The notes under the pieces were generated by a model, which was given only the letters and a program-made list of their open reading frames with translations, was not told where the DNA came from and did no database searches. Below, piece by piece: positions 25,462 to 64,000 of a stretch of 64,000 nucleotides of DNA. Both the position numbers and the translations under genes were made by a program. This DNA is from Megascapheus bottae (Eukaryota; Chordata; Mammalia; Rodentia; Geomyidae), in contig JANJXV010000266.1 in NCBI GenBank assembly GCA_024803745.1, positions 186,001 to 250,000 on the forward strand. Reading direction: 5' to 3'. Every line of letters starts with the position of its first letter. The first letter of the stretch is position 1.

Positions 25462-27329
25462 AGGATGCCCACTCCCTCCACTCCTTTTTAACATAGTACT
25501 AGAATTCCTAGGCAGTGCAATAAGGCAAGAAGCAAGCATAAAGGGGATCCAAGTAGGGAAAGAGGAAATAAAACTATCCCTCTTTGCCGATGACATGATT
25601 CTGTATTTAAAGAATCCTATAGACTCTACTCCCAAGCTCCTTGAGCTGATTCAAAGATTTGGAAGGGTAACAGGCCATAAAATCAACCCTCACAAATCAA
25701 CTACCTTACTTTATGCCAACACTGAGAGGAACGAGGCAATAATCAGGAAAGAAATTCCTTTTACAGTAGCCTCAAAGAAAATAAAGTACCTAGCAATTAG
25801 CTTAACTAAGAATGTAAAGGACCGTTTAGATGAAAACTTTAAAACCCTAAAAAAGGAAATAAAAGCAGAACTAAGGAAAGGGAAAAACCTCCCATGCTCC
25901 TGGATTGGAAGAATCAACATTGTGAAAATGACAATCTTGCCAAGGGCTATCTACAAATTCAATGTAATACCCATCAACATCCCAATGTCATTCTTTAAAG
26001 AAATAGAAGAGGCAATTCAAAATTTCATATGGAATAATAAAAGACCCCGTATAGCAAAAATACTTCTTAGCAGAAAGAACAGCGCTGGAGGAATTTCAAT
26101 TCCAAACTTAAGACTCTATTACAGAGCTATAATTCTCAAAACAGCTTGGTACTGGCACAAGAACCGGCCTGAAGTCCATTGCCGTAGAATTGCAGACCCA
26201 GATATTAAACCACAGACCTATGGCCACATAATCTTTGACCAGGGAGCTAAAAAATAGAATGGAAGAAAGATAGCCTCTTCAACAAGTTGTGCTGGCAGAA
26301 CTGGTTAAACACCTGCAGAAAAATAAGTTGGATCCTTCTTTGTCCCCTTGCACTAGAATTAACTCCAAATGGATCAAAGACGTGGAGGTAAAAGCTGACA
26401 CACTGAAAAGTTTACAGGAAGGAATAGGAGATACACTAGGCCTCCTTGGCACAGGTCGAAACTTTCTTAATTAGGACCAAGAATCACAACAAATCAGAGA
26501 AAGGCTGGATAAGTGGGACTGCATTAAACTGCAGAGCTTTTGTATGGCAACGGATATAGCTAGTAAACTAATCAGGAAGCCTACAGAGTGGGAGAATATC
26601 TTCACCACCCAAACAACGGACAAAGGCCTCATATCTAAAATATATCAACAACTCAAAAAATTGAATCACTCCAAGACTCACCTCCAAAGTAACACCCATC
26701 CCATTACAAAATGGGCCAAAGAATTAAAGAGAGTCTTCTCTGAAGAAGAAACAAAAATGGCCTATAGACACATGAAGAAATGCTCAACATCTCTGGTCAT
26801 AAAAGAAATGCAAATCAAAACAAGTCTAAGATTCCACCTAACTCCAGTTAGAATGGCCAGGATCAGGAAAACGAATGACAACAGATGCTGGAGGGGATGT
26901 GGTCAGGAGGGATCACTACTACACTGTTGGTGGGAGTGCAAACTCGTTCAACCACTATGGAAAGCAGTGCGGCAGTGCCTCAAAACGCTAAACATACAAC
27001 TCCCCTATGACCCAGCAATTCCAGTACTTGGCATTTACCCAACAATCCAGAAACAAGGGCATACTAAACCCACTAGCACAACAATGTTCATTGCAGCACT
27101 ATTCACCATAGCAAAGATATGGAACCAACCCAGAAGTCCCTCAGTTGATGAGTGGATCAACAAGTTGTGGTATTTGTACACAATGGAATTCTATGCTGCT
27201 GTCAGAAAGAATGACATCGCCCCATTTGTTAGGAAATGGAAAGACTTAGAACAAATCATATTAAGTGAAGTAAGCCAGACTCAAAGGAACTTAGGCTCAG
27301 TGGTTTCCCTCATTCGTCATAATCAGTAG
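25462..27329 (+). pseudogene. Partial L1 ORF2 (reverse transcriptase to C-terminus)
   Basis: It keeps the FADD active-site motif region ('ctctttgccgatgacatg', about 25,581) and the open stretches 25,595-26,257 and 26,544-27,329. The latter carries the C-terminal Cys-His cluster (C-W-R-G-C, then H-C-W-W-E-C) and then the conserved end S-V-V-S-L-I-R-H-N-Q. Breaks are at 26,255 (AAA to TAG, private) and 26,472-26,474 (TAG after N-F-L-N, also found in L1-5 only). It has no endonuclease and no ORF1, and is not functional. Confidence 0.85.
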
Positions 27330-27729
27330 AAACCTTGGGCTCTACTAGCAGAGATTGTCAATAGAGCAAAAGGCCATATATAAGGCCATATAATGTGAAG
27401 TTAATTGAAAGGACCTCCAGGATATTGACACAAAAGCCATGTAATGAATGATTGTTGTCCTTAATGTACTATGTTGTCTCTCATCTCGCTTGCTGTCCCT
27501 TGGTTATCCCATATTGGTATAGTATCTCACTTTGTTATCTGATATATTGAATTTGTTTGTATTTGGATATTTGAAATTTGATAGGGAAGGGGGGAAAACC
27601 AAGAAGGGAAGGGGGGAAATGGGTACCAAGACATGTGAAAGGGTATCAATGTATGTGAATTAATGCACCTTCTATCTGGCAAATATCATCTAACCCTTTT
27701 ACTAATTACAATAAAAAAATGAAAAAAAA
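25462..27729 (+). mobile_element. L1-0, truncated L1 at the left edge of the tandem array
   Basis: Homology to the array L1s begins abruptly at 'aggatgcccactc' (25,462), inside the reverse-transcriptase part of ORF2. It runs through the ORF2 end (TAG 27,327-27,329) and the 3' UTR to the A-rich tail. The junction of that tail with the spacer at 27,730 ('gaaagttgtag') is the same as in every later unit. Its 3' UTR lacks the G-tract 'gacgggtggggg' found in L1-1 to L1-4, reading '-aagaagggaaggggggaaa-' instead. It is either a separately truncated first insertion or a partial unit cut by the array boundary. Confidence 0.88.
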
Positions 27730-29103
27730 GAAAGTTGTAGTGTGTGGGGAGGATGATGGGGTCAAATACATTTCTTCTTAGAAATTTACCTCATCTGGTT
27801 GCCCTGGATTTTCCTGGCCTTTTTCTTAGAGAAAGTTCTGTTATACTGGATTTGTGGCTTGGCAATGATCTAGCATGTACATCTTCGAGTAAGACATCCA
27901 CAACTTTCATGCCTGAGACTCGAGTTTCCTGACCTTTGGCAACAGCACAGCAACATCTTTCTTCCTCCTGAGCCACAGGCCAAGTGAGCTGGCTTGAGCT
28001 GGTTGTTAGTTACAGTGACTTGGTTACCAGAGTTCCATATTCTGTTCCATTGTGAGGGAGGCAGGGTCACCTTTCAGGGCCCAATGACCAAAGATCCTTG
28101 CTCACAAAAGACCTCACCAAAGACATACTGGAGGCTGAATCTCTCCTCCAATCTCACAATATACATGTGGATGTAGTATACAGCACACCTTATTTGTCCT
28201 ATCCCAATGTCTTCCACTAGGCCCAACTACCAGTCTGGTCTCAGGCTCAAGGAGCCTTTCTTAGGTAAGATCCAAACTTAAGGGTCAATATTGCCCTCAT
28301 CCTTTACAAAACATTTGCTTCACAGTGCCTTCTCTGCCTGCATTTTGCCCCTGGTCAAATTTTTTTGTTTTTGCTAGTCTTGGGACTTGACCTCAGAGTG
28401 TGAACATTGTTCTTGGGCTTTCTTTAGGCTTTAGCTGTCCCACCGAGCCACAGCACAGATTGCAGCGTTTTCTATGCATGTGGTAATGAGGAATCAAACC
28501 TGAGGCTTACTGCTTGGTAGCCAAGGACTCTCCCACTAGGTCAAACGCACAGGGCATCTTGCACATATTTTTGACGTCAATCTACTAGGATATTATTAGG
28601 GTTCTGTATCCTAATCAATTTTTTCCTGATGATTAGCTTTGCTGTCATGTGTAAAAAATGCAGGAGGGAAAAACACAGAAGAATTAGTGAAATTAAAAAA
28701 AAGCATTAGACACAGTTAAGTGTTCATTCTTTGTAGGAGAAAGGATATTTGGATATGATGATGATGATGATGATGACTTTATAATTACTATGTCAGGGTT
28801 GAGAGTTTGGCATAGTGGTAGAGTGCTTGCCTAGCATCCATGAAGATCTGGGTTTGATTGCTCAGTACCACATAGATAGAAAATCTAGATGTGGCACTGT
28901 GGCTCAAGTGGCAGAGGGCTAGACTTGAGAAAACCCGAGGAGAGTGCTCAGGCCCTGAATTCAAGCCCCAAGACTGGCAGAAAGATCAAAGAAAATAAAA
29001 ATGCTTTTTACGAGCTAATTCACTCACAGCATTTGCTTCTGAAATCTTCGCTTCTGCATCTTGTGAAATACCGCTTTCCCTCAACGTAGACAAGAAAAAC
29101 AGA
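27730..29103. repeat. Array spacer 0, non-L1
   Basis: 1.37 kb between the A-tail of L1-0 and the 5' end of L1-1. It aligns to the reverse complement of 12,190-13,546. It contains an inverted ID-like SINE (about 28,362-28,555, minus), a short GAT triplet run (28,754-28,775) and a plus-strand ID-like SINE (28,797-28,985). Open frames of 60-66 codons appear on both strands in all spacers and at 13.2-13.4 kb. The ones checked start at GTG rather than ATG, and no coding role is supported. Confidence 0.88.
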
Positions 29104-29653
29104 TCCATCCCATGGTCCACTGTGAGGCCACTGGTTGGGCTAAGAGCTAGTCGTGCAGCAACACATAAGTTTTATTCTAATACTTTCCAAACTTTGTACT
29201 CAAATATGCTACCTACTTACCAACTTAGGTCAGTTATCCTTATGCTATAACTTTTCTTCATTACTACAATATTCTTACACTCCTACGTTAATCCTCTTGC
29301 ACCTCCCCTGACCTCTCTCATTCTTTTTTTCTATCTCTGGACCTCTGCTCGTCTTTCAACCCTTATACTGCACGAATCTACACTTGATGGCTGTTGAGCA
29401 ATATTGTATATGTAGGTGGTTAATTATTCTCTAGGCTCAGAGGGACTTAAAGACAATAGAGATTGGATTGAGAGGCTTATTGTTTTGGGTATAAATCGCT
29501 TATCAGTGGTTGTATTAGGCTGGTCTGTAAGTGCACAAAAAGAAAGAGTGATAATACCAATCAAAACTTGTGAACATCTAGTGTCTGCCAGCTACAGAGG
29601 TCTAGGTTGGTTATATCTAAAAAAGTATAGTCGTATTTAGTAGTAATCTTGCT

Positions 29654-29669
29654 CCCATTTTCAAATGGG
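29654..29669 (+). promoter_or_regulatory. Short hairpin overlapping the ORF1 start codon
   Basis: CCCATTT-TC-AAATGGG is a perfect 7-bp inverted repeat with a 2-base loop. The ORF1 ATG (29,665-29,667) lies in its right arm. It is unchanged at the ORF1 start of all five units. A 2-base loop is tight for RNA, so a functional role is only a possibility. Confidence 0.4.
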
Positions 29670-30848
29670 CAGAACAAGAAACTCAAGAAAAATGTCAAAT
29701 CAAGAAACAACATCCCCCACCCAACGTAAACAGACAATGGAACAGTCACTGGCAAACCTAGAGGAGAGTCTTCCAATTGCTACACAAATGCAATTGATAA
29801 ACATCATTAATGAAAAATGTGAAAATATAAAGAAAGAGATAATGGAGGAAGCCATACCTGAACAAGAGGAAAGCAAAAACAAGGTGATAAGTGAAAAAGA
29901 AGAAGCCATAAAGGAGGCCATAATAAAGGTTTTTCAAAGAAAGATGGATGAATTCAAAGAATCCACAAATAAAAACGTGACCAAACTCCAGCAAATGTCC
30001 AAAGAAAATAAAGCTACTGAGCTAACCACTCAAAAGGAAATCAAGGAGATAAAGAAATCCATTCATGATCTAAAACAAGAGACGCAAGGCATAAAAAGTG
30101 AGCAATTAGAAGCAAGGGAGATGAAAAATAAAGTAGATAGCTTTGATAGCAGGTTAGACATTGCAGAGGAGAGAATTTCCGTGGCTGAAGATAATTTAGG
30201 TATTATAAAGAACAGAAAATGAGTCAATCCAAATCTAGGAAATATGAGAGAGCGCTTCAGGAGGTCCAAGATACAATTAGGAAGCCTAATTTAAGGCTAG
30301 TTGGTATTGAGGAGGGCGTGGAGAAAGAGGTCAATGGTATTGGAAATATACTTCAGGGAATCATCTCAGAGAATTTCCCAAATATCCAGAAGGGCAGGCC
30401 CATCCAGATACGAGAAGCTTTTAGAACCCCAAACAGACCTGACCAGAAAAGAACATCCCACCGCAACATTGTGATCCGAACTGGAACAATAGAAACGAAA
30501 GGAAAGATCCCAAAGGCAGCCAGGGAAAAGGGATCAGTAACCTACAAAGGCAAACCAATCAGAATAACCCCAGATTTCTCAGCAGAGACCATGCAAGCAC
30601 GAAGTGACTGGAAGCATATATGTCATGCCCTTATATCAAATAACTACCAACCAAGAATACTGTAGCCAGCTAAGCTCTCATTCATAACTGAGGGAAAAAT
30701 AAAAACATTCCATTCCAGGGAAAAGCTGCAACAATATCTCGAAACAAAACCAACACTACAGAGAATTCTCAAAGATGCTCTATACATAGAAAACCAAAAT
30801 AAATGCAATAAAGGGAAAGAAATGGCACCTAAACAGCATACCATCTAA
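29665..30848 (+). pseudogene. L1 ORF1, broken (unit 1)
   Basis: L1 ORF1 encodes an RNA-binding chaperone that trimerises through a coiled coil and coats L1 RNA. The first 185 codons start MGRTRNSRK and form a heptad-rich, Lys/Glu-rich coiled coil. A frameshift near 30,212-30,222 ends this frame at TGA. The next frame (30,219-30,665) holds the RNA-recognition and C-terminal domains (N-L-R-L-V-G, E-N-F-P-N-I, A-R-E-K-G, R-P-I-Q-I). A TAG at 30,663-30,665 sits where relatives have Tyr before P-A-K-L-S-F. The frame then stays open to TAA at 30,846-30,848. Both lesions recur in every unit, so they predate the array. Differences here include T-Q-G-I-K (E-T-Q-G) and G-I-E-E-G against G-T-E-E-G elsewhere. 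Confidence 0.87.
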
Positions 30849-30896
30849 GGACCACAAGAACTGTCAAGACACAGGCCCTACTAAAAGCTTTTAAAA

Positions 30897-33800
30897 ATGG
30901 TAGGAACTAATAAATATCTCTCAATCCTAACTCTCAATATCAATGGACTTTACTCTCCAATTAAACGGCATAGGTTGTCTAGTTGGATCAAAAAGCAAGA
31001 GCCATCGTTCTGCTGACTTCGAGAGACACATCTTACCCAAAAACAATCATCTTTTGAAAGTGAGAGGTTGGAATAAACTCTATCAAGCTAACTGTCCCCA
31101 TAAACAGGCTAGAGTTGCCATCCTCATATCAGATACAATAGACTTCAAACGAAAATTAGTAAGAAAAGACAAAGAAGGTTACTACATACTACTAAAGGGA
31201 TCTTTCCTCCCGGAAGACATAACAATCCTAAATATTTACACACCCAATCCCGGAGCTCCAAACTTCATCAAGCAAACTTTACTTACACTGAAACCATACA
31301 TAGATCGAAACACAGTGATTGTTGGTGATTTTAACACACCACTCTCACCTATGGACAGATCAACAAGGCAAAAACTCAACAGAGAATCCTTAGAACTGAA
31401 CAACTATATAGACCAACTAGATCTAACAGACATCTGCAGAATATTCCACCCAGTAACACCACAATATACGTTTTTCTCAGCAGCACATGGAACATTTTCC
31501 AAAATAGACCACATCTTAGGCCATAAAGCAAACCTGGACAGATTCAGAAACACTGAAATTATTCCATGCACACTCTCAGACCATAAAGGCATCAAATTGG
31601 AGCTGAACACACATCTCCACCAAAGAAAACCCTGTAACTCATGGAGACTGAACCACACATTTTTGAATCAAAAACAATGGGTAATCGAAGAGATCAGAAC
31701 AGATATCCAACTGTTTATGAAATTTAACAATTAGGAGCACACAAATATCAACTCCTTAGGGACACAACAAAGGCAGTACTCAGAGGAAAATTTATAGCGC
31801 TGAGTGCTTACAACAGCAAGTTGGAAAAATGGCAAACCAACTAGTTAATGTCTCACCTTAACCTCCTGGAAAAAGAGCAACAAACCAACCCTAAACCCAT
31901 TAGGAGAAAGCAAGTTATTAAAATCAAAGCAGAATTAAATGATTTGGAATAAAAAAAAACTATAGAAAGAATCAACAAAACAAGGAGTTGGTTCTTGAAA
32001 GAATTAACAAAATTGACAAGCCCTTAGCAAATCTTACCAAAAAAAGAAGAGAGCATATCGAAATAAACAAAATCGCAGATGAAAATGGTAATATCACGAC
32101 AGAAATTACCAAGATCCAGAATATCATGAGGGAATACTTCTCAAACCTTTACGCCAACAAATTTGAGAATCTAGAAGAAATGGATGAATTCCTAGACAAT
32201 ATTAACATACACACACTGAACCAAGAAGAGCTAACCCAACTCAACAGGCCTATTTCAAGCTCTGAAATAGAAATGGAAATTAGACAACTTCCACTTAAAA
32301 AGAGCCCAGGGCCAGATGGATTCACAGCTGAATTCTATAAGGTCTTCAAAGCAGAGCTCACACCAATACTCCTCAAGCTCTTCAACGAAATTGAAAATGA
32401 AGGTTCTTTACTAAACTGATTCTGTGAAGCCAGCATATCCCTCATCCCCAAAGTAGACAGAGATTCATCAAAGAAAGAGATCTATAGACCCATTTCTTTC
32501 ATGAACCTCGATGCAAAACTTCTCAACAAAATACTGGCCAACCGTCTACAACAACTCATCAAAAAAAATATACACTATGATCAAACTGGATTCATCACAG
32601 GGAGGCAAAGCTGGTTCAACATACACAAATCAATTAATATAATTCAACACAACAACAGGAGCAGGGATAAAATCACATGATTGTCTCAATAGATGCGGAA
32701 AAGGCATTTGACAAGATCCAAAACCCCTTTATGTTAAAAGATGTGGAGAAACTAGGAATCCATGGAACATTTCTCAATGTAATAAAGGCTGTGTATGAGA
32801 AACCCACTGCTAGTATTATACTTAATGGTGAAAATCTAAAGCCATTCCCTCTAAAATCAGGAACGAGACAAGGATGCCCACTCTATCCACTCCTTTTTAA
32901 CGTAGTACTAGAATTCCTAGGCAGTGCAATAAGGCAAGAAGCAAGCATAAAGGGAATCCAAGTAGTGAAAGAGGAAATAAAACTATCCCTCTTTGCAGAT
33001 GACATGATTCTGTATTTAAAGAATCCTATAGACTCTACTCCCAAGCTCCTTGAGCTGATTCAAAACTTTGGAAGGGTAGCAGGCCATAAAATCAACCCTC
33101 ACAAATCAACTGCCTTACTTTACGCCAACACTGAGAGGAACGAGGCAATAATCAGGAAAGAAAATCCTTTCACAATAGCCTCAAAGAAAATAAAGTACCT
33201 AGCAATTAGCTTAACTAAGAATGTAAAGGACCGTTTAGATGAAAACTTTAAAAACCTAAAAAAGGAAATTAAAGCAGAACATAGGAAATGGAAAAACCTC
33301 CCGTGCTCCTGGATTGGAAGAATCAACATTGTGAAAATGACAATCTTGCCAAGGGCTATCTACAAATTCAATGTAATACCCATCAACATCCCAATGTCAT
33401 ACTTTAAAGACATAGAAGAGGCAATTCAAAATTTCATATGGAATAATGAAAGACCCCGTATAGCAAAAACACTTCTTAGCAGAAAGAACAGCGCTATAGG
33501 AATTTCAATTCCAAACTTAAGGCTCTATTACAGAGCTATAATTCTCAAAACAGCTTGGTACTGGCACAAGAACAGGCCTGAAGTCCAATGGAGTAGAACT
33601 GGAGACCCAGATATTAAACCACAGACCTATGGCCACCTAATCTTTGACCAGGGAGCCAAAAAAATAGAATGGCAGAAAGATAGCCTCTTCAACAAGTTGT
33701 GCTGGCAGAACTGGTTAAACACCTGCAGAAAACTAAAGTTGGATCCTTCTTTGTCACCTTGCACTAGAATTAAATCCAAATGGATCAAAGACGTGGAGGT

Positions 33801-34739
33801 AAAAGCTGACACACTGAAAGTTTACAGGAAGGAATAGGAGATACACTAGGCCTCCTTGGTACAGGTCGAAACTTTCTTAATAAGGACCAAGAATCACAAC
33901 AAATCAGAGAAAGGCTGGATAATTGGGACTGGATTAAAATGCAGAGCTTTTGTATGGCAACGGATATAGCTAGTAAACTAATCAGGAAGCCTACAGAGTG
34001 GGAGAAGATCTTCACCACCCAAACAACGGAACAAGGCCTCATATCTAAAATATATCAACAACTCAAAAAATTGAATCACTCCAAAACTAACCTCCAAAGT
34101 AACACCCATCCCATTACAAAATGGGCCAAAGAATTAAAGAGAGTCTTCTCTGAAGAAGAAACAAAAATGGCCTATAGACACATGAAGAAATGCTCAACAT
34201 CTCTGGTCATAAAAGAAATGCAAATCAAAACAAGTCTAAGATTCCACCTAACTCCAGTTAGAATGGCCAGGATCAGGAAAACGAATGACAACAGATGCTG
34301 GAGGGGATGTGGTCAGGAGGGATCACTACTACACTGTTGGTGGGAGTGCAAACTCGTTCAACCACTATGGAAAGCAGTGCGGCAGTGCCTCAAAACGCTA
34401 AACATACAACTCCCCTATGACCCAGCAATTCCAGTACTTGGCATTTACCCAACAATCCAGAAACAAGGGCATACTAAACCCACTAGCACAACAATGTTCA
34501 TTGCAGCACTATTCACCATAGCAAAGATATGGAACCAACCCAGATGTCCCTCAGTTGATGTGTGGATCAACAGGTTGTGGTATTTGTACACAATGGAATT
34601 CTATGCTGCTGTCAGGAAGAATGACATCGCCCCATTTGTTAGGAAATGGAAAGAATTAGAACAAATCATATTAAGTGAAGTAAGCCAGACTCAAAGGAAC
34701 TTAGGCTGAGTGGTTTCCCTCATTCCTCATAATCAGTAG
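30897..34739 (+). pseudogene. L1 ORF2, broken (unit 1)
   Basis: ORF2 normally encodes an endonuclease, a reverse transcriptase and a Cys-rich C-terminus. It starts ATG at 30,897 (M-V-G-T-N-K-Y-L-S-I-L-T-L-N-I-N-G). Codon 40 is TGA (31,014) and a frameshift in an A-run (31,039-31,043) follows; both are shared by all units. The endonuclease frame is then open to TAG at 31,732 (private) with G-D-F-N-T, S-K-I-D-H and S-D-H-K motifs intact. Several stops and shifts fall in the linker. TGA at 32,417 and a one-base shift at 'atcacatgatt' (about 32,672) precede the reverse-transcriptase frame, which is open 32,677-33,837 with F-A-D-D. A frameshift at 33,825-33,840 ('ctgaaagttt', one A fewer) is private. 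The C-terminal frame 33,939-34,709 keeps the Cys-His cluster and ends at a private TGA. Confidence 0.87.
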
Positions 34740-35015
34740 AAACCTTGGGCTCTACTAGCAGAGATTGTCAATAGAGCAAAAGGCCATATATAAGGCCATA
34801 TAATGTGAAGCTAATTGAAAGGACCTCCAGGATATTGACACAAAAGCCATATAATGAATGATTGTTGTCCTTAATGTACTATGTTGTCTCTCATCTCGCT
34901 TGCTGTCCCTTGGTTATCCCATATTGGTATAGTATCTCACTTTGTTATCTGATATATTGAATTTATTTGTATTTGGATATTTGAAATTTGATAGGGAAGG
35001 GGGGAAAACCAAGAC

Positions 35016-35040
35016 GGGTGGGGGGTGTGGGGTTGGACGG
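35016..35040 (+). other. G-rich tract in the L1-1 3' UTR
   Basis: Runs of G3, G6 and G4 are separated by T and TGT, followed by TTGGACGG. It is one G short of a fourth run, where units 2-4 have GGAGGG. G-rich 3' UTR tracts are a known feature of mammalian L1. Confidence 0.6.
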
Positions 35041-35154
35041 AAATGGGTACCAAGACATGTGAAAGGGTATCAATGTATGTGAATTAATGCACCTTCTATC
35101 TGGCAAATATCATCTAACCCTTTTACTAATTACAATAAAAAAATGAAAAAAAAA

Positions 35155-36554
35155 GAAAGTTGTAGTGTGTGGGGAGGATGATGGGGTCAAATACATTTCT
35201 TCTTAGAAATTTACCTCATCTGGTTGCCCTGGATTTTCCTGGCCTTCTTCTTAGAGAAAGTTCTGTTATACTGGATTTGTGGCTTTTCAATGATCTAGCA
35301 TGTACACCCTCGAGTAAGACATCCACAACTTCCATGCCTGAGACTCGAGTTTCCTGACCTTTGGCAACAGCACAGCAACATCTTTCTTCCTCCTGAGCCA
35401 CAGGCCAAGTGAGCTGGCTTGAGCTGGTTGTTAGTTACAGTGGCTTGGTTACCAGGGTTCCATATTCTGTTCCATTGTGAGGGAGGCAGGGTCACCTTTC
35501 AGGGCCCAATGACCAAAGATCCTTGCTCACAAAAGACCTCACCAAAGAAATACTGAAGGCTGAATCTCTCCTCCAGTCTCACAATATACATGTGGATGTA
35601 GTATACAGCACACCTTATTTTTCCTATCCCAATGTCTTCCACTAGGCCCAACTACCAGTCTGGTCTCAGGCTCAAGGACCCTTTCTTAGGTAAGATCCAA
35701 ACTTAAGGGTCAATATTGCCCTCATCCTTTACAAAACATTTGCTTCACAGTGCCTTCTCTGCCTGCATTTTGCCCCTTGTCGAATTTTTTTTTGTTTATG
35801 CTAGTCTTGGGACTTGACCTCAGAGTGTGAACATTGTTCTTGGGCTTTCTTTAGGCTTTAGCGGTCCCACCGAGACACAGCACCACTTGCAGCGTTTTCT
35901 ATGTATGTGGTAATGAGGAATCAAACCTGAGGCTTACTGCTTGGTAGCCAAGGACTCTCCCACTAGGTCAAACACACAGGGCATCTTGCACATATTTTTG
36001 ACGTCAATCTACTAGGGTATTATTAGGTTTCTGTATCCTAATCAATTTTTTCCTGATGATTAGCTTTGCTGTCATGTGTAAAAAATGCAAGAGGGAAAAA
36101 CACAGAAGAATTAGTGAAATTAAAAAAAAGCATTAGACACAGTTAAGTGTTCATTCTTTGTAGGAGAAAGTATATTTGGATATGATGATGATGATGATGA
36201 TGATGATAATGATGATGATGATGATGACTTTATATTTACTATGTCAGGGTTGATAGTTTGGCATAGTGGTAGAGTGCTTGCCTAGCATCCATGAAGATCT
36301 GGGTTTGATTGCTCAGTACCACATAGATAGAAAATCTAGATGTGGCACTGTGGCTCAAGTGGCAGAGGGCTAGACTTGAGAAAACCCGAGGACAGTGCTC
36401 AGGCCCTGAATTCAAGCCCCAAGACTGGCAGAAAGATCAAAGAAAATAAAAATGCTTTTTACGAGCTAATTCACTCACAGCATTTGCTTCTGAAATCTTC
36501 GCTTCTGCATCTTGTGAAATACCCCTTTCCCTCAACGTAGACAAGAAAAACAGA
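35155..36554. repeat. Array spacer 1, with expanded GAT repeat
   Basis: Same content and order as spacer 0, but about 28 bp longer. The GAT/ATG triplet tract here (36,182-36,231) has about 16 units with one GATAAT interruption, against about 5-8 in the other spacers. This accounts for the longer first period (7,451 against 7,423). Confidence 0.88.
36182..36231. repeat. (GAT)n triplet repeat, long allele
   Basis: About 16 triplets with one AAT interruption. The equivalent tracts are 28,754-28,775, 43,632-43,650, 50,917-50,935 and 58,203-58,221. The diverged ancestor-like site near 12,521-12,534 has a CAT run on the other strand. Confidence 0.9.
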
Positions 36555-37115
36555 TCCATCCCATGGTCCACTGTGAGGCCACTGGTTGGGCTAAGAGCTA
36601 GTCGTGCAGCAACACATAAGTTTTATTCTAATACTTTCCAAAATTTGTACTCAAATATGCTACCTACTTACCAACTTATGTCAGTTATCCATATGCTGTA
36701 ACTTTTCTTCATTACTACAATATTCTTACACTCCTACGTTAATCCTCTTGCACCTCCCCTGACCTCTCTCATTCTTTTTTTCTATCTCTGGACCTCTGCT
36801 TGTCTTTCAACCCTTATACTGCACGGATCTACACTTGATGGCTGTTGAGCAATATTGTATATGTAGGTGGTTAATTATTCTCTAGGCTCAGAGGGACTTA
36901 AAGACAATAGAGATTGGATTGAGAGGCTTATTGTTTTGGGTATAAATCGCTTATCAGTGGTTGTATTAGGCTGGTCTGTAAGTGCTCAAAAAGAAAGAGT
37001 GATAATACCAATCAAAACTTGTGAACATCTAGTTTCTGCCAGCTACAGAGGTCTAGGTTCGTTATATCTGAAAAACTATAATCGTATTTAGTAGTAATCT
37101 TGCTCCCATTTTCAA

Positions 37116-38299: not shown

Positions 38300-38347
38300 G
38301 GACCACAAGAACTGTCAAGACACAGGCCCTACTAAAAGCTTTTAAAA

Positions 38348-49753: not shown

Positions 49754-49778
49754 GGGTGGGGGGTGGGGGGTTGGAGGG
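49754..49778 (+). other. G-quadruplex-type tract, L1-3 3' UTR
   Basis: G3-T-G6-T-G6-TTGGA-G3 on the plus strand: four runs with loops of 1, 1 and 5 bases, the strongest version in the array. The same sequence occurs in L1-4 at 57,040-57,064. Confidence 0.65.
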
Positions 49779-49891
49779 AAATGGGTACCAAGACATGTGA
49801 AAGGGTATCAATGTATGTGAATTAATGCACCTTCTATCTGGCAAATATCATCTAACCCTTTTACTAATTACAATAAAAAAATGAAAAAAAA

Positions 49892-51263: not shown

Positions 51264-51823
51264 CCATCCCATGGTACATTGTGAGGCCACTGGTTTTGCT
51301 AAGAGCTAGTCGTGCAGCACCACATAAGTTTTATTCTAATACTTTCCAAACTTTGTACTCAAATATGCTACCTACTTACCAACTTATGTCAGTTATCCTT
51401 ATGCTGTAACTTTTCTTCATTACTACAATATTCTTACACTCCTACGTTAATCCTCTTGCACCTCCCCTGACCTCTCTCATTCTTTTTTTCTATCTCTGGA
51501 CCTCTGCTCGTCTTTCAACCCTTATACTGCACGGATCTACACTTGATGGCTGTTGAGCAATATTGTATATGTAGGTGGTTAATTATTCTCTAGGCTCAGA
51601 GGGACTTAAAGACAATAGAGATTGGATTGAGAGGCTTATTGTTTTGGGTATAAATCGCTTATCAGTGGTTGTATTAGGCTGGTCTGTAAGTGCACAAAAA
51701 GAAAGAGTGATAATACCAATCAAAACATGTGAACATCTAGTGTCTGCCAGCTACAGAGGTCTAGGTTGGTTATATCTGAAAAACTATAATCGTATTTAGT
51801 AGTAATCTTGCTCCCATTTTCAA

Positions 51824-53007
51824 ATGGGCAGAACAAGAAACTCAAGAAAAATGTCAAATCAAGAAACAACATCCCCCACCCAATGTAAACAGACAATGGA
51901 ACAGTCACTGGCAAACCTAGAGGAGAGTCTTCCAATTGCTACACAAATGCAATTGATAAACATCATTAATGAAAAATGTGAAAATATAAAGAAAGAGATA
52001 ATGGAGGAAGCCATACCTGAACAAGAGGAAAGCAAAAACAAGGTGATAAGTGAAAAAGAAGAAGCCATAAAGGAGGCCATAATAAAGGTTTTTCAAAGAA
52101 AGATGGATGAATTCAAAGAATCCACAAATAAAAACGTGACCAAACTCCAGCAAATGTCCAAAGAAAATAAAGCTACTGAGCTAACCACTCAAAAGGAAAT
52201 CAAGGAGATAAAGAAATCCATACATGATCTAAAACAAGGGATGCAAGGCATCAAAAGTGAGCAATTAGAAGCAAGGGAGATGAAAAATAAAGTAGATAGC
52301 TTTGGTAGCAGGTTAGACATTGCAGAGGAGAGAATTTCCGTGGCTGAAGATAATTTAGGTATTATAAAGAACAGAAAATGAGTCAATCCAAATCTAGGAA
52401 ATATGAGAGAGCGCTTCAGGAGGTCCAAGATACAATTATGAAGCCTAATTTAAGGCTAGTTGGTACTGAGGAGGGCGTGGAGAAAGAGGTCAATGGATTT
52501 GGAAATATACTTCAGGGAATCATCTCAGAGAATTTCCCAAATATCCAGAAGGGCAGGCCCATCCAGATGCGAGAAGCTTTTAGAACCCCAAACAGACCTG
52601 ACCAGAAAAGAACATCCCACCGCCACATTGTGATCCGAACTGGATCAATAGAAACGAAAGGAAAGATCCTAAAGGCAGCCAGGGAAAAGGGATCAGTAAC
52701 CTACAAAGGCAAACCAATCAGAATAACCCCAGATTTCTCAGCAGAGACCATGCAAGCACGAAGTGACTGGAAGCGTATATGTCATGCCCTTATATCAAAT
52801 AACTACCAACCAAGAATAGTGTAGCCAGCTAAGCTCTCATTCATAACTGAGGGAAAAATAAAAACATTCCATTCGAGGGAAAAGCTGCAACAATATGTCG
52901 AAACAAAACCAACACTACAGAGAATTCTCAAAGATGCTCTATACATAGAAAACCAAAATAAATGCAATATAGGGAAAGAAATGGCACCTAAACAGCATAC
53001 CAACTAA
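51824..53007 (+). pseudogene. L1 ORF1, broken (unit 4)
   Basis: Frames 51,824-52,381 and 52,378-52,824, then TAG, then open to TAA 53,005-53,007. It carries R-to-M (T-I-M-K-P) and H-to-R (W-K-R-I-C), shared only with unit 5, and not the private I-to-S of unit 3. Confidence 0.86.
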
Positions 53008-53055
53008 GGACCACAAGAACTGTCAAGACACAGGCCCTACTAAAAGCTTTTAAAA

Positions 53056-56000
53056 ATGGTAGGAACTAATAAATATCTCTCAATCCTAACTCTCAATATC
53101 AATGGACTTAACTCTCCAATTAAACGGCATAGGTTGTCTAGTTGGATCAAAAAGCAAGAGCCATCGTTCTGCTGACTTCGAGAGACACATCTTACCCAAA
53201 AACAATCATCTTTTGAAAGTGAGAGGTTGGAATAAACTCTATCAAGCTAACTGCCCCCATAAACAGGCTAGAGTTGCCATCCTCATATCAGATACAATAG
53301 ACTTCAAACTAAAATTAGTAAGAAAAGACAAAGAAGGTTACTACATACTACTAAAGGGATCTTTCCTCCCAGAACACATAACAATCCTAAATATTTACAC
53401 ACCCAATCCCGGAGCTCCAAACTTCATCAAGCAAACTTTACTTACACTGAAACCATACATAGATCGAAATACAGTGATTGTTCGTGAGTTTAACACACCA
53501 CTCTCACCTATGGACAGATCAACAAGGCAAAAACTCAACAGAGAAACTTTAGAACTGAACAACTATATAGACCAACTAGATCTAACAGACATCTGCAGAA
53601 TATTCCACCCAGTAACACCACAATATACGTTTTCCTCAGCATCACATGGAACATTTTCTAAAATAGACCACATCTTAGGCCATAAAACAAACCTGGACAG
53701 ATTCAGAAACATTGAAATCATTTAATGCACACTCTCAGACCATAGAGGCATCAAATTGGATCGAAAACCCTGTAACTAATGGAGACTGAACAACACATTG
53801 TTGAATCAAAAACAATGGTTAATAAAAGAGATCAGAACCGATATCCAACTGTTTATGAAATTGAACAATAAGGAGCACACAAATATCAACTCCTTAGGGA
53901 CACAACAAAGGCAGTACTCAGAGGAAAATTTATACCACTGAGTGCCTACAACAGCAAGTTGGAAAAATGGCAAACCAACTAGTTAATGTTTCACCTTAAC
54001 CTCCTGGAAAAAGATCAACAAACCAACCCTAAACCCATTAGGAGAAAGCAAATTATTAAAATCAAAGCAGAATTACATGATTTGGAATAAAAAAAACTAT
54101 AGAAAGAATCAACAAAACAAGGAGTTGGTTCTTGAAAGAATTAACAAAATTGACAAGCCCTTAGCAAATCTTACCAAAAAAGAAGAGAGCATATCGAAAT
54201 AAACAAAATCGCAGATGAAAATGGTAATATCACGACAGAAATTACCAAGATCCAGAATATCATGAGGGAATACTTCTCAAACCTTTACGCCAACAAATTT
54301 GAGAATCTAGAAGAAATGGATGAATTCCTAGACAATATTAACATACACACACTGAACCAAGAAGAGCTAACCCAACTCAACAGGCCTATTTCAAGCTCTG
54401 AAATAGAAATGGAAATTAGACAACTTCCACTTAAAAAGAGCCCAGGGCCAGATGGATTCACAGCTGAATTCTATAAGGTCTTCAAAGCAGAGCTCACACC
54501 AATACTCCTCAAGCTCTTCAACGAAATTGAAAATGAAGGTTCTTTACTAAACTGATTCTGTGAAGCCAGCATATCCCTCATCCCCAAACCAGACAGAGAT
54601 TCATCAAAGAAAGAGATCTATAGACCCATTTCTTTGATGAACATCGATGCAAAACTTCTCAACAAAATACTGGCCAACCGTCTACAACAACTCATCAAAA
54701 AAAAATATACACTATGATCAAACTGGATTCATCACAGGGAGGCAAAGCTGGTTCAACATACAGAAATCAATTAATATAATTCAACACAACAACAGGAGCA
54801 GGGATAAAATCACATGATTGTCTCAATAGATGCGGAAAAGGCATTTGACAAGATCCAAAACCCCTTTATGTTAAAAGATGTGGAGAAACTAGGAATCCAT
54901 GGAACATTTCTCAATGTAATAAAGGCTGTGTATGAGAAACCCACTGCTAGTATTATACTTAATGGTGAAGATCTAAAGCCATTCCCTCTAAAATCAGGAA
55001 CGAGACAAGGATGCCCACTCTCTCCACTCCTTTTTAACATAGTACTAGAATTCCTAGGCAGTGCAATAAGGCAAGAAGCAAGCATAAAGGGGATCCAAGT
55101 AGGGAAAGAGGAAATAAAACTATCCCTCTTTGCAGATGACATGATTCTGTATTTAAAGAATCCTATAGACTCTACTCCCAAGCTCCTTGAGCTGATTCAA
55201 AGCTTTGGAAGCGTAGCAGGCCATAAAATCAACCCTCACAAATCAACTGCCTTACTTTACGCCAACACTGAGAGGAACGAGGCAATAATCAGGAAAGAAA
55301 ATCCTTTCACAATAGCCTCAAAGAAAATAAAGTACCTAGCAATTAGCTTAACTAAGAATGTAAAGGACCGTTTAGATGAAAACTTTAAAACCCTAAAAAA
55401 GGAAATTAAAGCAGAACTAAGGAAATGGAAAAACCTCCCGTGCTCCTGGATTGGAAGAATCAACATTGTGAAAATGACAATCTTGCCAAGGACTATCTAC
55501 AAATTCAATGTAATACCCATCAACATCCCAATGTCATTCTTTAAAGACATAGAAGAAGCAATTAAAAATTTCATATGGAATAATAAAAGACCCCGTATAG
55601 CAAAAACACTTCTTAGCTGAAAGAACAGCGCTGGAGGAATTTCAATTCCAAACTTAAGGCTCTATTACAGAGCTATAATTCTCAAAACAGCTTGGTACTG
55701 GCACAAGAACAGGCCTGAAGTCCACTGGAGTAGAACTGCGGACCCAGATATTAAACCACAGACCTATGGCCACCTACTCTTTGACCAGGGAGCCAAAAAA
55801 ATAGAATGGAAGAAAGATAGCCTCTTCAACAAGTTGTGCTGGCAGAACTGGTTAAACACCTGCAGAAAACTAAAGTTGGATCCTTCTTTGTCCCCTTGCA
55901 CTAGAATTAACTCCAAATGGATCAAAGACGTGGAGGTAAAAGCTGACACACTGAAAAGTTTACAGGAAGGAATAGAAGATACACTAGGCCTCCTTGGTAC

Positions 56001-56876
56001 AGGTCGAAACTTTCTTAATAAGGACCAAGAATCACAACAAATCAGAGAAAGGCTGGATAAGTGGGACTGCATTAAACTGCAGAGCTTTGTATCGCAACGG
56101 ATATAGCTAGTAAACTAATCAGGAAGCCTACAGAGTGGGAGAAGATCTTCACCACCCAAACAACGGAACAAGGCCTCATATCTAAAATATATCAACAACT
56201 CAAAAAATTGAATCACTCCAAAACTAACCTCCAAAGTAACACCCATCCCATTACAAAATGGGCCAAAGACTTAAAGAGAGTCTTCTCTGAAGAAGAAACA
56301 AAAATGGCCTATAGACACATGAAGAAATGCTCAACATCTCTGGTCATAAAAGAAATGCAAATCAAAACAAGTCTAAGATTCCACCTAACTCCAGTTAGAA
56401 TGGCCAGGATCAGGAAAACGAATGACAACAGATGCTGGAGGGGATGTGGTCAGGAGGGATCACTACTACACTGTTGGTGGGAGTGCAAACTCGTTCAACC
56501 ACTATGGAAAGCAGTGCAGCAGTGCCTCAAAACGCTAAACATACAACTCCCCTATGACCCAGCAATTCCAGTACTTGGCATTTACCCAACAATCCAGAAA
56601 CAAGGGCATACTAAACCCACTAGCACAACAATGTTCATTGCAGCACTATTCACCATAGCAAAGATATGGAACCAACCCAGATGTCCCTCACTTGATAAGT
56701 GGATCAACAAGTTGTGGTATTTGTACACAATGGAATTCTATGCTGCTGTCAGAAAGAATGACATCGCCCCATTTGTTAGGAAATGGAAAGACTTAGAACA
56801 AATCATATTAAGTGAAGTAAGCCAGACTCAAAGGCACTTAGGCTCAGTGGTTTCCCTCATTCGTCATAATCGGTAG
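53056..56876 (+). pseudogene. L1 ORF2, broken (unit 4)
   Basis: Endonuclease frame 53,102-53,725 (V-R-E-F-N-T), linker frame 54,262-54,555, reverse-transcriptase frame 54,814-55,620 ending at the same TGA as in unit 3, and C-terminal frame 56,208-56,876. An added A in the run at about 54,689-54,697 breaks the K-K-N-I-H-Y-D frame that is open in units 2, 3 and 5, so that short frame is absent here. Confidence 0.86.
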
Positions 56877-57039
56877 AAACCTTGGGCTCTACTAGCAGAG
56901 ATTGGCAATAGAGCAAAAGGCCATATATAAGGCCATATAATGTGAAGCTAATTGAAAGGACCTCCAGGATATCTGATATATTGAATTTATTTGTATTTGG
57001 ATATTTCAAATTTGATAGGGAAGGGGGGAAAACCAAGAC

Positions 57040-57064
57040 GGGTGGGGGGTGGGGGGTTGGAGGG
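57040..57064 (+). other. G-quadruplex-type tract, L1-4 3' UTR
   Basis: Same G3-T-G6-T-G6-TTGGA-G3 arrangement as in L1-3. Confidence 0.65.
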
Positions 57065-57177
57065 AAATGGGTACCAAGACATGTGAAAGGGTATCAATGT
57101 ATGTGAATTAATGCACCTTCTATCTGGCAAATATCATCTAACCCTTTTACTAATTACAATAAAAAAATGAAAAAAAA

Positions 57178-58549
57178 GAAAGTTGTAGTGTGTGGAGAGG
57201 ATAATGGGGTCAAATACATTTCTTCTTAGAAATTTACCTCATCTGTTTGCCCTGGATTTTCCTGGCCTTCTTCTTAGAGAAAGTTCTGTTATACTGGATT
57301 TGTGGCTTGGCAATGATCTAGCATGTACATCTTCGAGTAAGACATCCACAACTTCCATGCCTGAGACTCGAGTTTCCTGACCTTTGGCAACAACACAGCA
57401 ACATCTTTCTTCCTCCTGAGCCACAGGCCAAGTGAGCTGGCTTGAGCTGGTTGTTAGTTACAGTGGCTTGGTTACCAGGGTTCCATATTCTGTTCCATTG
57501 TGAGGGAGGCAGGGTCACCTTTCAGGGCCAATGACCAAAGATCCTTGCTCACAAACGACCTCACCAAAGACATACTGGAGGCTGAATCTCTCCTCCAGTC
57601 TCACAATATACATGTGGATGTAGTATAGAGCACACCTTATTTGTCCAATCCCAATGTCTTCCACTAGGCCCAACTACCAGTCTGGTCTCAGGCTCAAGGA
57701 GCCTTTCTTAGGTAAGATCCAAACTTAAGGGTCAATATTGCCCTCATCCTTTACAAAACATTTGCTTCAGAGTGCCTTCCCTGCCTGCATTTTGCCCCTT
57801 GTCGATTTTTTTTTGTTTTTCCTAGTCTTGGGACTCGACCTCAGAGTGTGAACATTGTTCTTGGGCTTTCTTTAGGCTTTAGCTGTCCCACCGATCCACA
57901 GCACCACTTGCAGCGTTTTCTATTTATGTGGTAATGAGGAATCAAACCTGAGGCTTACTGCTTGGTAGCCAAGGACTCTACCACTAGGTCAAACACACAG
58001 TGCATCTTGCACATATTTTTGATGTCAATCTACTAGGATATTATTAGGGTTCTTTATCCTAATCAATTTTTTCCTGATGATTAGCTTTGCTGTCATGTGT
58101 AAAAAATGCAAGAGGGAAAAACACAGAAGAATTAGTGAAATTAAAAAAAAGCATTAGACACAGTTAAGTGTTCATTCTTTGTAGGAGAAAGGATATTTGG
58201 ATATGATGATGATGATGATGACTTTATAATTACTATGTCAGGGTTGAGAGTTTGGCATAGTGGTAGAGTGCTTGCCTAGCATCCATGAAGATCTGGGTTT
58301 GATTGCTCAGTACCACATAGATAGAAAATCTAGATGTGGCACTGTGGCTCAAGTGGCAGAGGGCTAGACTTGAGAAAACCCGAGGACAGTGCTCAGGCCC
58401 TGAATTCAAGCCCCAAGACTGGCAGAAAGATCAAAGAAAATAAAAATGCTTTTTACGAGCTAATTCACTCACAGCATTTGCTTCTGAAATCTTCGCTTCT
58501 GCATCTTATGAAATACCCCTTTCCCTCAACGTAGACAAGAAAAACAGAT
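57178..58549. repeat. Array spacer 4
   Basis: Essentially a copy of spacer 3. The first difference I see is just to the right, in the 5' UTR of the next L1 ('catcccttggtac' at about 58,551 against 'catcccatggtac' in unit 4). Confidence 0.88.
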
Positions 58550-59109
58550 CCATCCCTTGGTACATTGTGAGGCCACTGGTTTTGCTAAGAGCTAGTCGTG
58601 CAGCACCACATAAGTTTTATTCTAATACTTTCCAAACTTTGTACTCAAATATGCTACCTACTTACCAACTTATGTCAGTTATCCTTATGCTGTAACTTTT
58701 CTTCATTACTACAATATTCTTACACTCCTACGTTAATCCTCTTGCACCTCCCCTGACCTCTCTCATTCTTTTTTTCTATCTCTGGACCTCTGCTCGTCTT
58801 TCAACCCTTATACTGCACGGATCTACACTTGATGGCTGTTGAGCAATATTGTATATGTAGGTGGTTAATTATTCTCTAGGCTCAGAGGGACTTAAAGACA
58901 ATAGAGATTGGATTGAGAGGCTTATTGTTTTGGGTATAAATCGCTTATCAGTGGTTGTATTAGGCTGGTCTGTAAGTGCACAAAAAGAAAGAGTGATAAT
59001 ACCAATCAAAACATGTGAACATCTAGTGTCTGCCAGCTACAGAGGTCTAGGTTGGTTATATCTGAAAAACTATAATCGTATTTAGTAGTAATCTTGCTCC
59101 CATTTTCAA

Positions 59110-60293
59110 ATGGGCAGAACAAGAAACTCAAGAAAAATGTCAAATCAAGAAACAACATCCCCCACCCAATGTAAACAGACAATGGAACAGTCACTGGCAA
59201 ACCTAGAGGAGAGTCTTCCAATTGCTACACAAATGCAATTGATAAACATCATTAATGAAAAATGTGAAAATATAAAGAAAGAGATAATGGAGGAAGCCAT
59301 ACCTGAACAAGAGGAAAGCAAAAACAAGGTGATAAGTGAAAAAGAAGAAGCCATAAAGGAGGCCATAATAAAGGTTTTTCAAAGAAAGATGGATGAATTC
59401 AAAGAATCCACAAATAAAAACGTGACCAAACTCCAGCAAATGTCCAAAGAAAATAAAGCTACTGAGCTAACCACTCAAAAGGAAATCAAGGAGATAAAGA
59501 AATCCATACATGATCTAAAACAAGGGATGCAAGGCATCAAAAGTGAGCAATTAGAAGCAAGGGAGATGAAAAATAAAGTAGATAGCTTTGGTAGCAGGTT
59601 AGACATTGCAGAGGAGAGAATTTCCGTGGCTGAAGATAATTTAGGTATTATAAAGAACAGAAAATGAGTCAATCCAAATCTAGGAAATATGAGAGAGCGC
59701 TTCAGGAGGTCCAAGATACAATTATGAAGCCTAATTTAAGGCTAGTTGGTACTGAGGAGGGCGTGGAGAAAGAGGTCAATGGATTTGGAAATATACTTCA
59801 GGGAATCATCTCAGAGAATTTCCCAAATATCCAGAAGGGCAGGCCCATCCAGATGCGAGAAGCTTTTAGAACCCCAAACAGACCTGACCAGAAAAGAACA
59901 TCCCACCGCCACATTGTGATCCGAACTGGATCAATAGAAACGAAAGGAAAGATCCTAAAGGCAGCCAGGGAAAAGGGATCAGTAACCTACAAAGGCAAAC
60001 CAATCAGAATAACCCCAGATTTCTCAGCAGAGACCATGCAAGCACGAAGTGACTGGAAGCGTATATGTCATGCCCTTATATCAAATAACTACCAACCAAG
60101 AATAGTGTAGCCAGCTAAGCTCTCATTCATAACTGAGGGAAAAATAAAAACATTCCATTCGAGGGAAAAGCTGCAACAATATGTCGAAACAAAACCAACA
60201 CTACAGAGAATTCTCAAAGATGCTCTATACATAGAAAACCAAAATAAATGCAATATAGGGAAAGAAATGGCACCTAAACAGCATACCAACTAA
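59110..60293 (+). pseudogene. L1 ORF1, broken (unit 5)
   Basis: Frames 59,110-59,667 and 59,664-60,110, TAG, then open to TAA 60,291-60,293. The frame translations are the same as in unit 4, including T-I-M-K-P and W-K-R-I-C. Confidence 0.86.
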
Positions 60294-60341
60294 GGACCAC
60301 AAGAACTGTCAAGACACAGGCCCTACTAAAAGCTTTTAAAA

Positions 60342-63300
60342 ATGGTAGGAACTAATAAATATCTCTCAATCCTAACTCTCAATATCAATGGACTTAACTC
60401 TCCAATTAAACGGCATAGGTTGTCTAGTTGGATCAAAAAGCAAGAGCCATCGTTCTGCTGACTTCGAGAGACACATCTTACCCAAAAACAATCATCTTTT
60501 GAAAGTGAGAGGTTGGAATAAACTCTATCAAGCTAACTGCCCCCATAAACAGGCTAGAGTTGCATTCTCATATCAGATACAATAGACTTCAAACTAAAAT
60601 TAGTAAGAAAAGACAAAGAAGGTTACTACATACTACTAAAGGGATCTTTCCTCCCAGAACACATAACAATCCTAAATATTTACACACCCAATCCCGGAGC
60701 TCCAAACTTCATCAAGCAAACTTTACTTACACTGAAACCATACATAGATCGAAATACAGTGATTGTTCGTGAGTTTAACACACCACTCTCACCTATGGAC
60801 AGATCAACAAGGCAAAAACTCAACAGAGAAACTTTAGAACTGAACAACTATATAGACCAACTAGATCTAACAGACATCTGCAGAATATTCCACCCAGTAA
60901 CACCACAATATACGTTTTCCTCAGCATCACATGGAACATTTTCTAAAACAGACCACATCTTAGGCCATAAAACAAACCTGGACAGATTCAGAAACATTGA
61001 AATCATTTAATGCACACTCTCAGACCATAGAGGCATCAAATTGGATCGAAAACCCTGTAACTAATGGAGACTGAACAACACATTGTTGAATCAAAAACAA
61101 TGGTTAATAAAAGAGATCAGAACCGATATCCAACTGTTTATGAAATTGAACAATAAGGAGCACACAAATATCAACTCCTTAGGGACACAACAAAGGCAGT
61201 ACTCAGAGGAAAATTTATACCACTGAGTGCCTACAACAGCAAGTTGGAAAAATGGCAAACCAACTAGTTAATGTTTCACCTTAACCTCCTGGAAAAAGAT
61301 CAACAAACCAACCCTAAACCCATTAGGAGAAAGCAAATTATTAAAATCAAAGCAGAATTAAATGATTTGGAATAAAAAAAAACTATAGAAAGAATCAACA
61401 AAACAAGGAGTTGGTTCTTGAAAGAAATAACAAAATTGACAAGCCCTTAGCAAATCTTACCAAAAAAGAAGAGAGCATATCGAAATAAACAAAATCGCAG
61501 ATGAAAATGGTAATATCACGACAGAAATTACCAAGATCCAGAATATCATGAGGGAATACTTCTCAAACCTTTACGCCAACAAATTTGAGAATCTAGAAGA
61601 AATGGATGAATTCCTAGACAATATTAACATACACACACTGAACCAAGAAGAGCTAACCCAACTCAACAGGCCTATTTCAAGCTCTGAAATAGAAATGGAA
61701 ATTAGACAACTTCCACTTAAAAAGAGCCCAGGGCCAGATGGATTCACAGCTGAATTCTATAAGGTCTTCAAAGCAGAGCTCACACCAATACTCCTCAAGC
61801 TCTTCAACGAAATTGAAAATGAAGGTTCTTTACTAAACTGATTCTGTGAAGCCAGCATATCCCTCATCCCCAAACCAGACAGAGATTCATCAAAGAAAGA
61901 GATCTATAGACCCATTTCTTTGATGAACATCGATGCAAAACTTCTCAACAAAATACTGGCCAACCGTCTACAACAACTCATCAAAAAAAATATACACTAT
62001 GATCAAACTGGATTCATCACAGGGAGGCAAAGCTGGTTCAACATACACAAATCAATTAATATAATTCAACACATCAACAGGAGCAGGGATAAAATCACAT
62101 GATTGTCTCAATAGATGCGGAAAAGGCATTTGACAAGATCCAAAACCCCTTTATGTTAAAAGATGTGGAGAAACTAGGAATCCATGGAACATTTCTCAAT
62201 GTAATAAAGGCTGTGTATGAGAAACCCACTGGGAGTATTATACTTAATGGTGAAAATCTAAAGCCATTCCCTCTAAAATCAGGAACGAGACAAGGATGCC
62301 CACTCTCTCCACTGCTTTTTAACATAGTACTAGAATTCCTAGGCAGTGCAATATGGCAAGAAGCAAGCATAAAGGGGATCCAAGTAGGGAAAGAGGAAAT
62401 AAAACTATCCCTCTTTGCAGATGACATGATTCTGTATTTAAAGAATCCTATAGACTCTACTCCCAAGCTCCTTGAGCTGATTCAAAGCTTTGGAAGCGTA
62501 GCAGGCCATAAAATCAACCCTCACAAATCAACTGCCTTACTTTATGCCAACACTGAGAGTAACGAGGCAATAATCAGGAAAGAAAATCCTTTCACAATAG
62601 CCTCAAAGAAAATAAAGTACCTAGCAATTAGCTTAACTAAGAATGTAAAGGACCGTTTAGATGAAAACTTTAAAACCCTAAAAAAGGAAATTAAAGCAGA
62701 ACTAATGAAATGGAAAAACCTCCCATGCTCCTGGATTGGAAGAATCAACATTGTGAAAATGACAATCTTGCCAAGGACTATCTACAAATTCAATGTAATA
62801 CCCATCAACATCCCAATGTCATTCTTTAAAGACATAGAAGAAGCAATTCAAAATTTCATATGGAATAATAAAAGACCCCGTATAGCAAAAACACTTCTTA
62901 GCAGAAAGAACAGCGCTGGAGGAATTTCAATTCCAAACTTAAGGCTGTATTACAGAGCTATAATTCTCAAAACAGCTTGGTACTGGCACAAGAACAGGCC
63001 TGAAGTCCACTGGAGTAGAACTGCGGACCCAGATATTAAACCACAGACCTATGGCCACCTACTCTTTGACCAGGGAGCCAAAAAAATAGAATGGAAGAAA
63101 GATAGCCTCTTCAACAAGTTGTGCTGGCAGAACTGGTTAAACACCTGCAGAAAACTAAAGTTGGATCCTTCTTTGTCCCCTTGCACTAGAATTAACTCCA
63201 AATGGATCAAAGACGTGGAGGTAAAAGCTGACACACTGAAAAGTTTACAGGAAGGAATAGAAGATACACTAGGCCTCCTTGGTACAGGTCGAAACTTTCT

Positions 63301-64000
63301 TAATTAGGACCAAGAATCACAACAAATCAGAGAAAGGCTGGATAAGTGGGACTGCATTAAACTGCAGAGCTTTGTATCGCAACGGATATAGCTAGTAAAC
63401 TAATCAGGAAGCCTACAGAGTGGGAGAAGATCTTCACCACCCAAACAACGGAACAAGGCCTCATATCTAAAATATATCAACAACTCAAAAAATTGAATCA
63501 CTCCAAAACTAACCTCCAAAGTAACACCCATCCCATTACAAAATGGGCCAAAGACTTAAAGAGAGTCTTCTCTGAAGAAGAAACAAAAATGGCCTATAGA
63601 CACATGAAGAAATACTCAACATGTCTGGTCATAAAAGAAATGCAAATCAAAACAAGTCTAAGATTCCACCTACTCCAGTTAGAATGGCCAGGATCAGGAA
63701 AACGAATGACAACAGATGCTGCAGGGGATGTGGCCAGAAGGGATCACTACTACATTGTTGATGGGAGTGCAAACTCGTTCAACCACTATGGAAAGCAGTG
63801 CGGCAGTGCTTCAAAGGCTAAACATACAACTCCCCTATGACCCAGCAATTCCAGTACTTGGCATTTACCCAACAATCCAGAAACAAGGGCATACTAAACC
63901 CACTAGCACAACAATGTTCATTGCAGCACTATTCACCATAGCAAAGATATGGAACCAACCCAGATGTCCCTCAGTTGATGAGTGGGTCAACAAGTTGTGG
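60342..64000 (+). pseudogene. L1 ORF2, broken, partial (unit 5)
   Basis: An extra private one-base deletion at about 60,564 ('gttgcattctc' for 'gttgccatcctc') splits the endonuclease frame into 60,388-60,585 and 60,759-61,010. I-to-T in S-K-I-D-H (S-K-T-D-H) changes a conserved endonuclease motif. The reverse-transcriptase frame 62,099-63,307 is longer than in units 3 and 4 (F-A-D-D kept) and ends at TAG after N-F-L-N, a stop otherwise seen only in L1-0. A one-base loss near 63,671 ('cacctactcc') shifts the Cys-rich C-terminal region out of frame. Confidence 0.85.

Follow-up and report, generated by a model that had tools for sequence, protein, structure and literature searches.

Double transposon insertion has reportedly been proposed as a substrate for satellite DNA, going by the title of a Drosophila study by McGurk and Barbash from 2018, and this scheme, in which two insertions seed a satellite, is the one we propose here for a rodent locus. 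The origins of satellite arrays are usually erased by later homogenization. Several mammalian systems come close to the locus described below. Tandem L1PA3 arrays lie on the acrocentric short arms of the orangutan, and the ape composite repeat ACRO is a 6-kb unit with L1 pieces (L1PA10 and L1MB8 annotations among others) whose arrays reach a few hundred kb, according to the accessible part of a preprint (PMC12767296). Excerpts of other reports describe 13 new composite repeats on ape sex chromosomes (PMC11168930), L1-dense arrays of more than 100 kb in mouse, human, dog, and opossum (PMC5848613), and L1 pieces related to satellites of cetaceans, Phodopus, and a seal (PMC9659126), and nonallelic LINE-LINE homologous recombination is called widespread in human in the available text of a further study (PMC4344489). 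Tandem L1 arrays and transposon composite repeats are thus already in print, and the array reported here is not a new kind of system.

We analyzed a window of 64,000 nucleotides from Megascapheus bottae (contig JANJXV010000266.1, positions 186,001 to 250,000; coordinates below are those of the window) that contains a head-to-tail array of L1 and spacer DNA. Like the orangutan arrays, it consists of tandem L1s in a mammal; however, the former are built from a primate L1 family and are acrocentric in the accessible text of PMC12767296, whereas in Megascapheus a dead L1 alternates with a 1.37-kb non-L1 spacer. It has a tandem unit of several kb in common with ACRO and the other ape composites, as far as the available parts of PMC12767296 and PMC11168930 go, but five units are seen here against the few hundred kb of ACRO, and an L1 with ORF1 and ORF2 in place stands against the L1 annotations of ACRO. 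As in the LINE pairs discussed in the excerpted text of PMC4344489, directly oriented L1s serve as crossover substrate and breakpoints fall inside L1; that study concerns copy-number variants and rearrangements between LINE pairs, while the present case is an array. The L1-dense arrays are likewise long mammalian stretches made mostly of L1, but in the part of PMC5848613 available they are defined by a LINE content above 70%, and ours is defined by head-to-tail repetition of one unit. In a literature search that had most subscription papers outside its reach, neither this array nor an L1-plus-spacer unit of such build was found. Because the copies are few and clearly diverged and the left-hand L1 is truncated, individual exchanges can be located, and the idea that two transposons seed a satellite thereby becomes testable at one locus. 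Dead L1s still reshape the genome as a recombination substrate.

A self-alignment of the window, a comparison suggested in an earlier note on this DNA, shows the array running on the plus strand from 25462 to the window end at 64000, with 25462-42289 matching 32871-49690 at 97.5% and 42397-56717 matching 49684-64000 at 99.5%. At its left edge stands a 5'-truncated L1, L0 (25462-27730), which comprises part of ORF2, the 3' end, and an A-rich tail. It is followed by spacer-plus-L1 repeats in the same orientation, U1 to U5, with spacers of 1.37 to 1.40 kb and L1s of 5.91 to 6.05 kb per unit. U1 (27731-35155) has a 1374-bp spacer (27731-29104) and an L1 with broken ORFs (29105-35155); U2 (35156-42605) has a 1400-bp spacer (35156-36555) and an L1 at 36556-42605. 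In U3 (42606-49892), a 1373-bp spacer (42606-43978) precedes an L1 (43979-49892) with a 113-column gap downstream of ORF2 that is common to U4. U4 (49893-57178) is made of a 1371-bp spacer (49893-51263) and an L1 at 51264-57178, and U5 (57179-64000), also with a 1371-bp spacer (57179-58549), has its L1 (58550-64000) cut by the window end.

The sequences AAAGAAAGTTG at the L1 end and AAAAACAGATC at the L1 start each occur five times on the plus strand of the window, at junctions only, which bears out the head-to-tail alternation with identical junctions described in the earlier note. The ORF1 start codons at 29665, 37116, 44539, 51824, and 59110, with periods of 7451, 7423, 7285, and 7286, likewise reproduced its values exactly. 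Its description of the units as full-length L1s holds for the layout only, as both ORFs are broken, and L0 is a fragment that starts inside ORF2. The head-to-tail unit of several kb is that of a macrosatellite; macrosatellites usually have many copies, tens or more, and five units and one fragment are visible in the window. The array is probably best regarded as a composite tandem repeat, a small macrosatellite, of dead L1 and 1.37 kb of non-L1 DNA.

In the history that we propose, L0 and an L1 of nearly full layout, oriented alike, would have flanked a single spacer, and misaligned recombination between these two L1s would have duplicated the spacer and an L1. The L1s would have contributed nothing but homology to these exchanges, and U4, the newest copy, would have arisen by one crossover within L1 between neighboring L1s. 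We hold this history as a whole with good, though not full, confidence.

The latest step is the one most directly recorded. All counts of two-state sites given here (for U4, for the five-unit patterns, and for L0 against U5) were made after dropping gapped sites and those with more than two states. At the 65 such sites among U3, U4, and U5, U4 carries the U5 state 32 times and the U3 state 33 times; it has no substitution of its own and a single private 1-base indel. A single switch fits 64 of the 65 ordered sites, the exception being one base private to U5, and none of 20,000 shuffles did as well. The U4 L1 is U5-like up to 52775 and U3-like from 53277, so that the switch interval (52775-53277, plus strand) lies near the ORF1/ORF2 boundary, between alignment column 2911 (U3 45490, U4 52775, U5 60061) and column 3413 (U3 45992, U4 53277). 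Spacers follow the same division, with 0 differences between U4 and U5 in 1371 sites and 1.60% between U3 and U4. A hybrid unit with one switch between neighbors is what unequal crossover produces, and these data directly support U4 as the footprint of such a crossover inside L1; an assembly mosaic would look alike. The proposal of the earlier note that unequal recombination between L1s amplified the unit therefore has direct support for this latest step, and weaker support for the founding one.

If two L1s founded the array, internal L1s should resemble the right-hand L1 on their left side and L0 on their right side. On the left of columns 6386-6489 it is L0 that stands apart, at 26 sites against 4 for U5; on the right it is U5, at 10 sites against 1 for L0. 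The best single L0/U5 switch fits 36 of 41 sites and was reached by 3 of 50,000 shuffles when the split was refitted in each (Fisher test, 8.7e-6 for a split chosen after seeing the data). This reciprocal switch interval, at 26679-26782 in L0 (63511-63614 in U5; plus strand), is a candidate for the founding crossover, and the private differences of U5 cluster from 63614 on. When L0, U1, U2, and U3 were considered alone, 29 of 1309 left-hand sites and 6 of 837 right-hand sites were private to L0 (P = 0.008). However, the number of private sites also drops across the split in U1 (from 16 on the left to 2 on the right) and in U2 (from 8 to 1), the two sides having 1313 and 398 columns, so the L0 half of the signal may be partly regional. 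Since 9 of the 10 right-hand private states of U5 are derived relative to older L1s, a conversion tract in U5 is possible, and conversion into U5 together with regional differences could mimic the founding signal. The derived states also rule out an older L1 subfamily as the source of the right part of U5. Of the polarized sites, L0 alone has the derived state at 10, and U1 to U5 share it at 2.

Target-site duplications were sought at the same places. Across the internal L1s there is none (the longest common word, 6 bases, was met or exceeded in 184 of 500 control windows), as expected if the internal copies arose as DNA. Around L0, the 5' flank has no more than a 5-base word in common with the spacer start, and their best ungapped match, 12 of 17, was reached by 44 of 500 controls; L0 thus bears no mark of a normal insertion, which makes it necessary to assume a deletion or rearrangement. 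The reciprocal switch and the lack of a duplication across internal L1s suggest, less strongly than the evidence on U4, that two L1s in the same orientation around one spacer founded the array. To this extent the flanking pair postulated in the earlier note gains support, but the L0 5' flank, which shows no clear duplication, speaks against it. The switch hints at U5 as the founding L1 on the right and at an array that may end near 64.5 kb, about 0.5 kb past the window; a much larger copy number is for this reason unsupported. Extrapolated from U4, the L1 of U5 would end near 64.47 kb, or near 64.58 kb without the 113-column gap. Only tentatively can the most specific version be put forward, namely, that the two founding L1s still stand at the ends as L0 and U5, with the founding crossover confined to some 100 bp of ORF2 and the latest to some 500 bp close to the ORF1/ORF2 boundary, and that U4 is young enough for unit number still to vary among living animals.

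The array could instead have been amplified in one step, by a rolling-circle or other mechanism, with a spacer-plus-L1 circle reinserted as an array or with a single L1 landing among spacers that were already in tandem. Arrays from a circle have arbitrary edges, and this one does start inside ORF2, at 25462. U1, U2, and U3 are also about equidistant from each other, at 130 of 7423 sites for U1-U2 (1.75%), 146 of 7284 for U1-U3 (2.00%), and 134 of 7287 for U2-U3 (1.84%). On the other hand, after a single insertion the L1 should be flanked by a target-site duplication, where only the chance-level 6-base word was found, and the hybrid nature of U4 attests to one or more distinct later steps. We consider one-step amplification unlikely and favor recombination between two L1s. 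Exchange appears to have been patchy: of the 51 sites that separate U1 and U2 from U3 to U5, 19 are packed into 400 columns, as in none of 20,000 random placements, a cluster that we infer to be a conversion tract from a more distant L1. A stretch at 46349-46730 in U3, with its equivalents in U4 and U5, is dense in such differences, has a 21-column gap inside it, and looks like a conversion tract from another L1.

An assembler might also have multiplied one or a few L1-plus-spacer units. U4 has the look of a mosaic path through a repeat, since it matches U5 on the left and U3 on the right and departs from them by a single substitution and a single 1-base indel in the whole unit; being nearly identical piecewise to its neighbors, it would be the product of an exchange in the very recent past or of mosaic assembly, which look the same. 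The other copies differ too much for this explanation. U3 and U5 differ at 65 of 6821 sites (0.95%), and L0 differs from U1 to U4 by 2.46 to 2.73% and from U5 by 2.99%. The 231 two-state sites among U1 to U5 fall mostly into tree-like patterns: U1 against the rest (64), U2 alone (51), U1 and U2 against U3 to U5 (51), U5 alone (23), U4 with U5 (16), U3 alone (12), U3 with U4 (8), and other patterns (6). Assemblers do not create such patterns or pairwise differences of 0.95 to 2.99%; thus, L0, U1, U2, U3, and U5 are genuine copies rather than an assembly echo, and expansion by the assembler is improbable as an account of the array.

In all five units the spacer leads into the L1 through one and the same junction, as it would if it were the L1's own 5' region and the unit a 7.4-kb L1 repeated head to tail. 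However, the spacer is not unique. An inverted copy, absent from the earlier note, lies at 12190-13546 on the minus strand (83% alike by blastn with gaps; 15.0 to 15.9% different in ungapped sites). It ends on both sides at the spacer's own edges, where the L1 junctions would be, and has no array L1 beside it. In addition, two stretches of the spacer, SINE-like in U1, have further short, dispersed copies in the window at 66.7 to 87.1% identity and resemble old SINEs. These observations leave little room for the spacer as an L1 5' region and favor non-L1 DNA caught between L1s, and the 560 bp between the L1 start and ORF1, as delimited here, form the putative native 5' region. No long ORF was found in the spacer (the longest stop-free stretch is 72 codons), and a search for structured RNA gave no Rfam match at gathering scores. 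The left flank of the array, left of L0, had no match to the flanks of 12190-13546 at an E value of 1e-8. Short ORFs adjoin the spacer paralog at 13549-15981; three that were tried had no Pfam match, and the one at 13549-13824 had no PDB match.

The array element is assigned to the L1 (LINE-1) family by its ORF2 and layout, with ORF1 upstream of ORF2 and A-rich 3' tails. In Pfam searches, RVT_1 scored above the cutoff in all three ORF2 pieces given and the endonuclease domain PF03372 in one of two, and a 687-amino-acid ORF in the U2 L1 (40127-42190) matched L1 ORF2p of solved structures (E value, 4.4e-279), which marks the window as mammalian. The best 120 of 749 relatives found by protein search were 47 to 63% identical and, where named, mostly mammalian; three non-mammal names among the protein matches listed may be contamination, and no single species stands out among them. 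The letters of the SINEs are at most a tentative hint of a castorimorph rodent. The first ORF1 piece alone (185 amino acids) had no Pfam match. An ORF1-like match was detected at 30255-30605 and at the equivalent places, in five of five units, with the query P0069, whose listed domains include PF02994, presumably L1 ORF1. Its frame, worked out from the match coordinates, differs from that of the ORF1 start in every unit.

The same disabling lesions recur along the array (counts cover U1 to U5; L0 stops short of those columns). ORF2 is interrupted by a TGA at column 4712 in all five units, and a TAG at column 2958, probably premature, is equally constant. A further frame change in ORF2, at columns 4967-4974, was found by tblastn in four of the five, U4 departing with an extra base about 110 columns upstream. 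Both ORF1 and ORF2 are broken in each of the five units, and none of these L1s is therefore competent. All five L1-to-spacer junctions, that of L0 included, are the same, and the A-rich tails are nearly identical. Since the disabled ORFs are common to all five L1s, the unit must have multiplied as DNA rather than by retrotransposition. Repeated retrotransposition into one and the same place is extremely improbable: insertion is the normal way for L1s to multiply, but the common lesions by themselves come near to a refutation, and the shared junctions, the nearly identical tails, and a spacer repeated along with the L1 speak against it as well.

The part of the window to the left of the array contains other repeats. 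C2H2 zinc-finger repeats at 3385-4270 probably represent a pseudogene or a piece of a disrupted copy, since the longest ORF listed there has only 145 amino acids (3660-4097); among six left-part ORFs scanned against Pfam, the zinc-finger one alone matched. At 5255-6137, old L1 pieces of opposite polarity lie back to back, on the minus strand at 5255-5652 and on the plus strand at 5654-6137; such a pair can result from 5' inversion in the course of insertion or from a subsequent rearrangement. A few kb to the left of the array, and oriented as its L1s are, lie two older L1 3' ends (20184-21299 and 21517-21991) that are 77 to 78% like the array L1.
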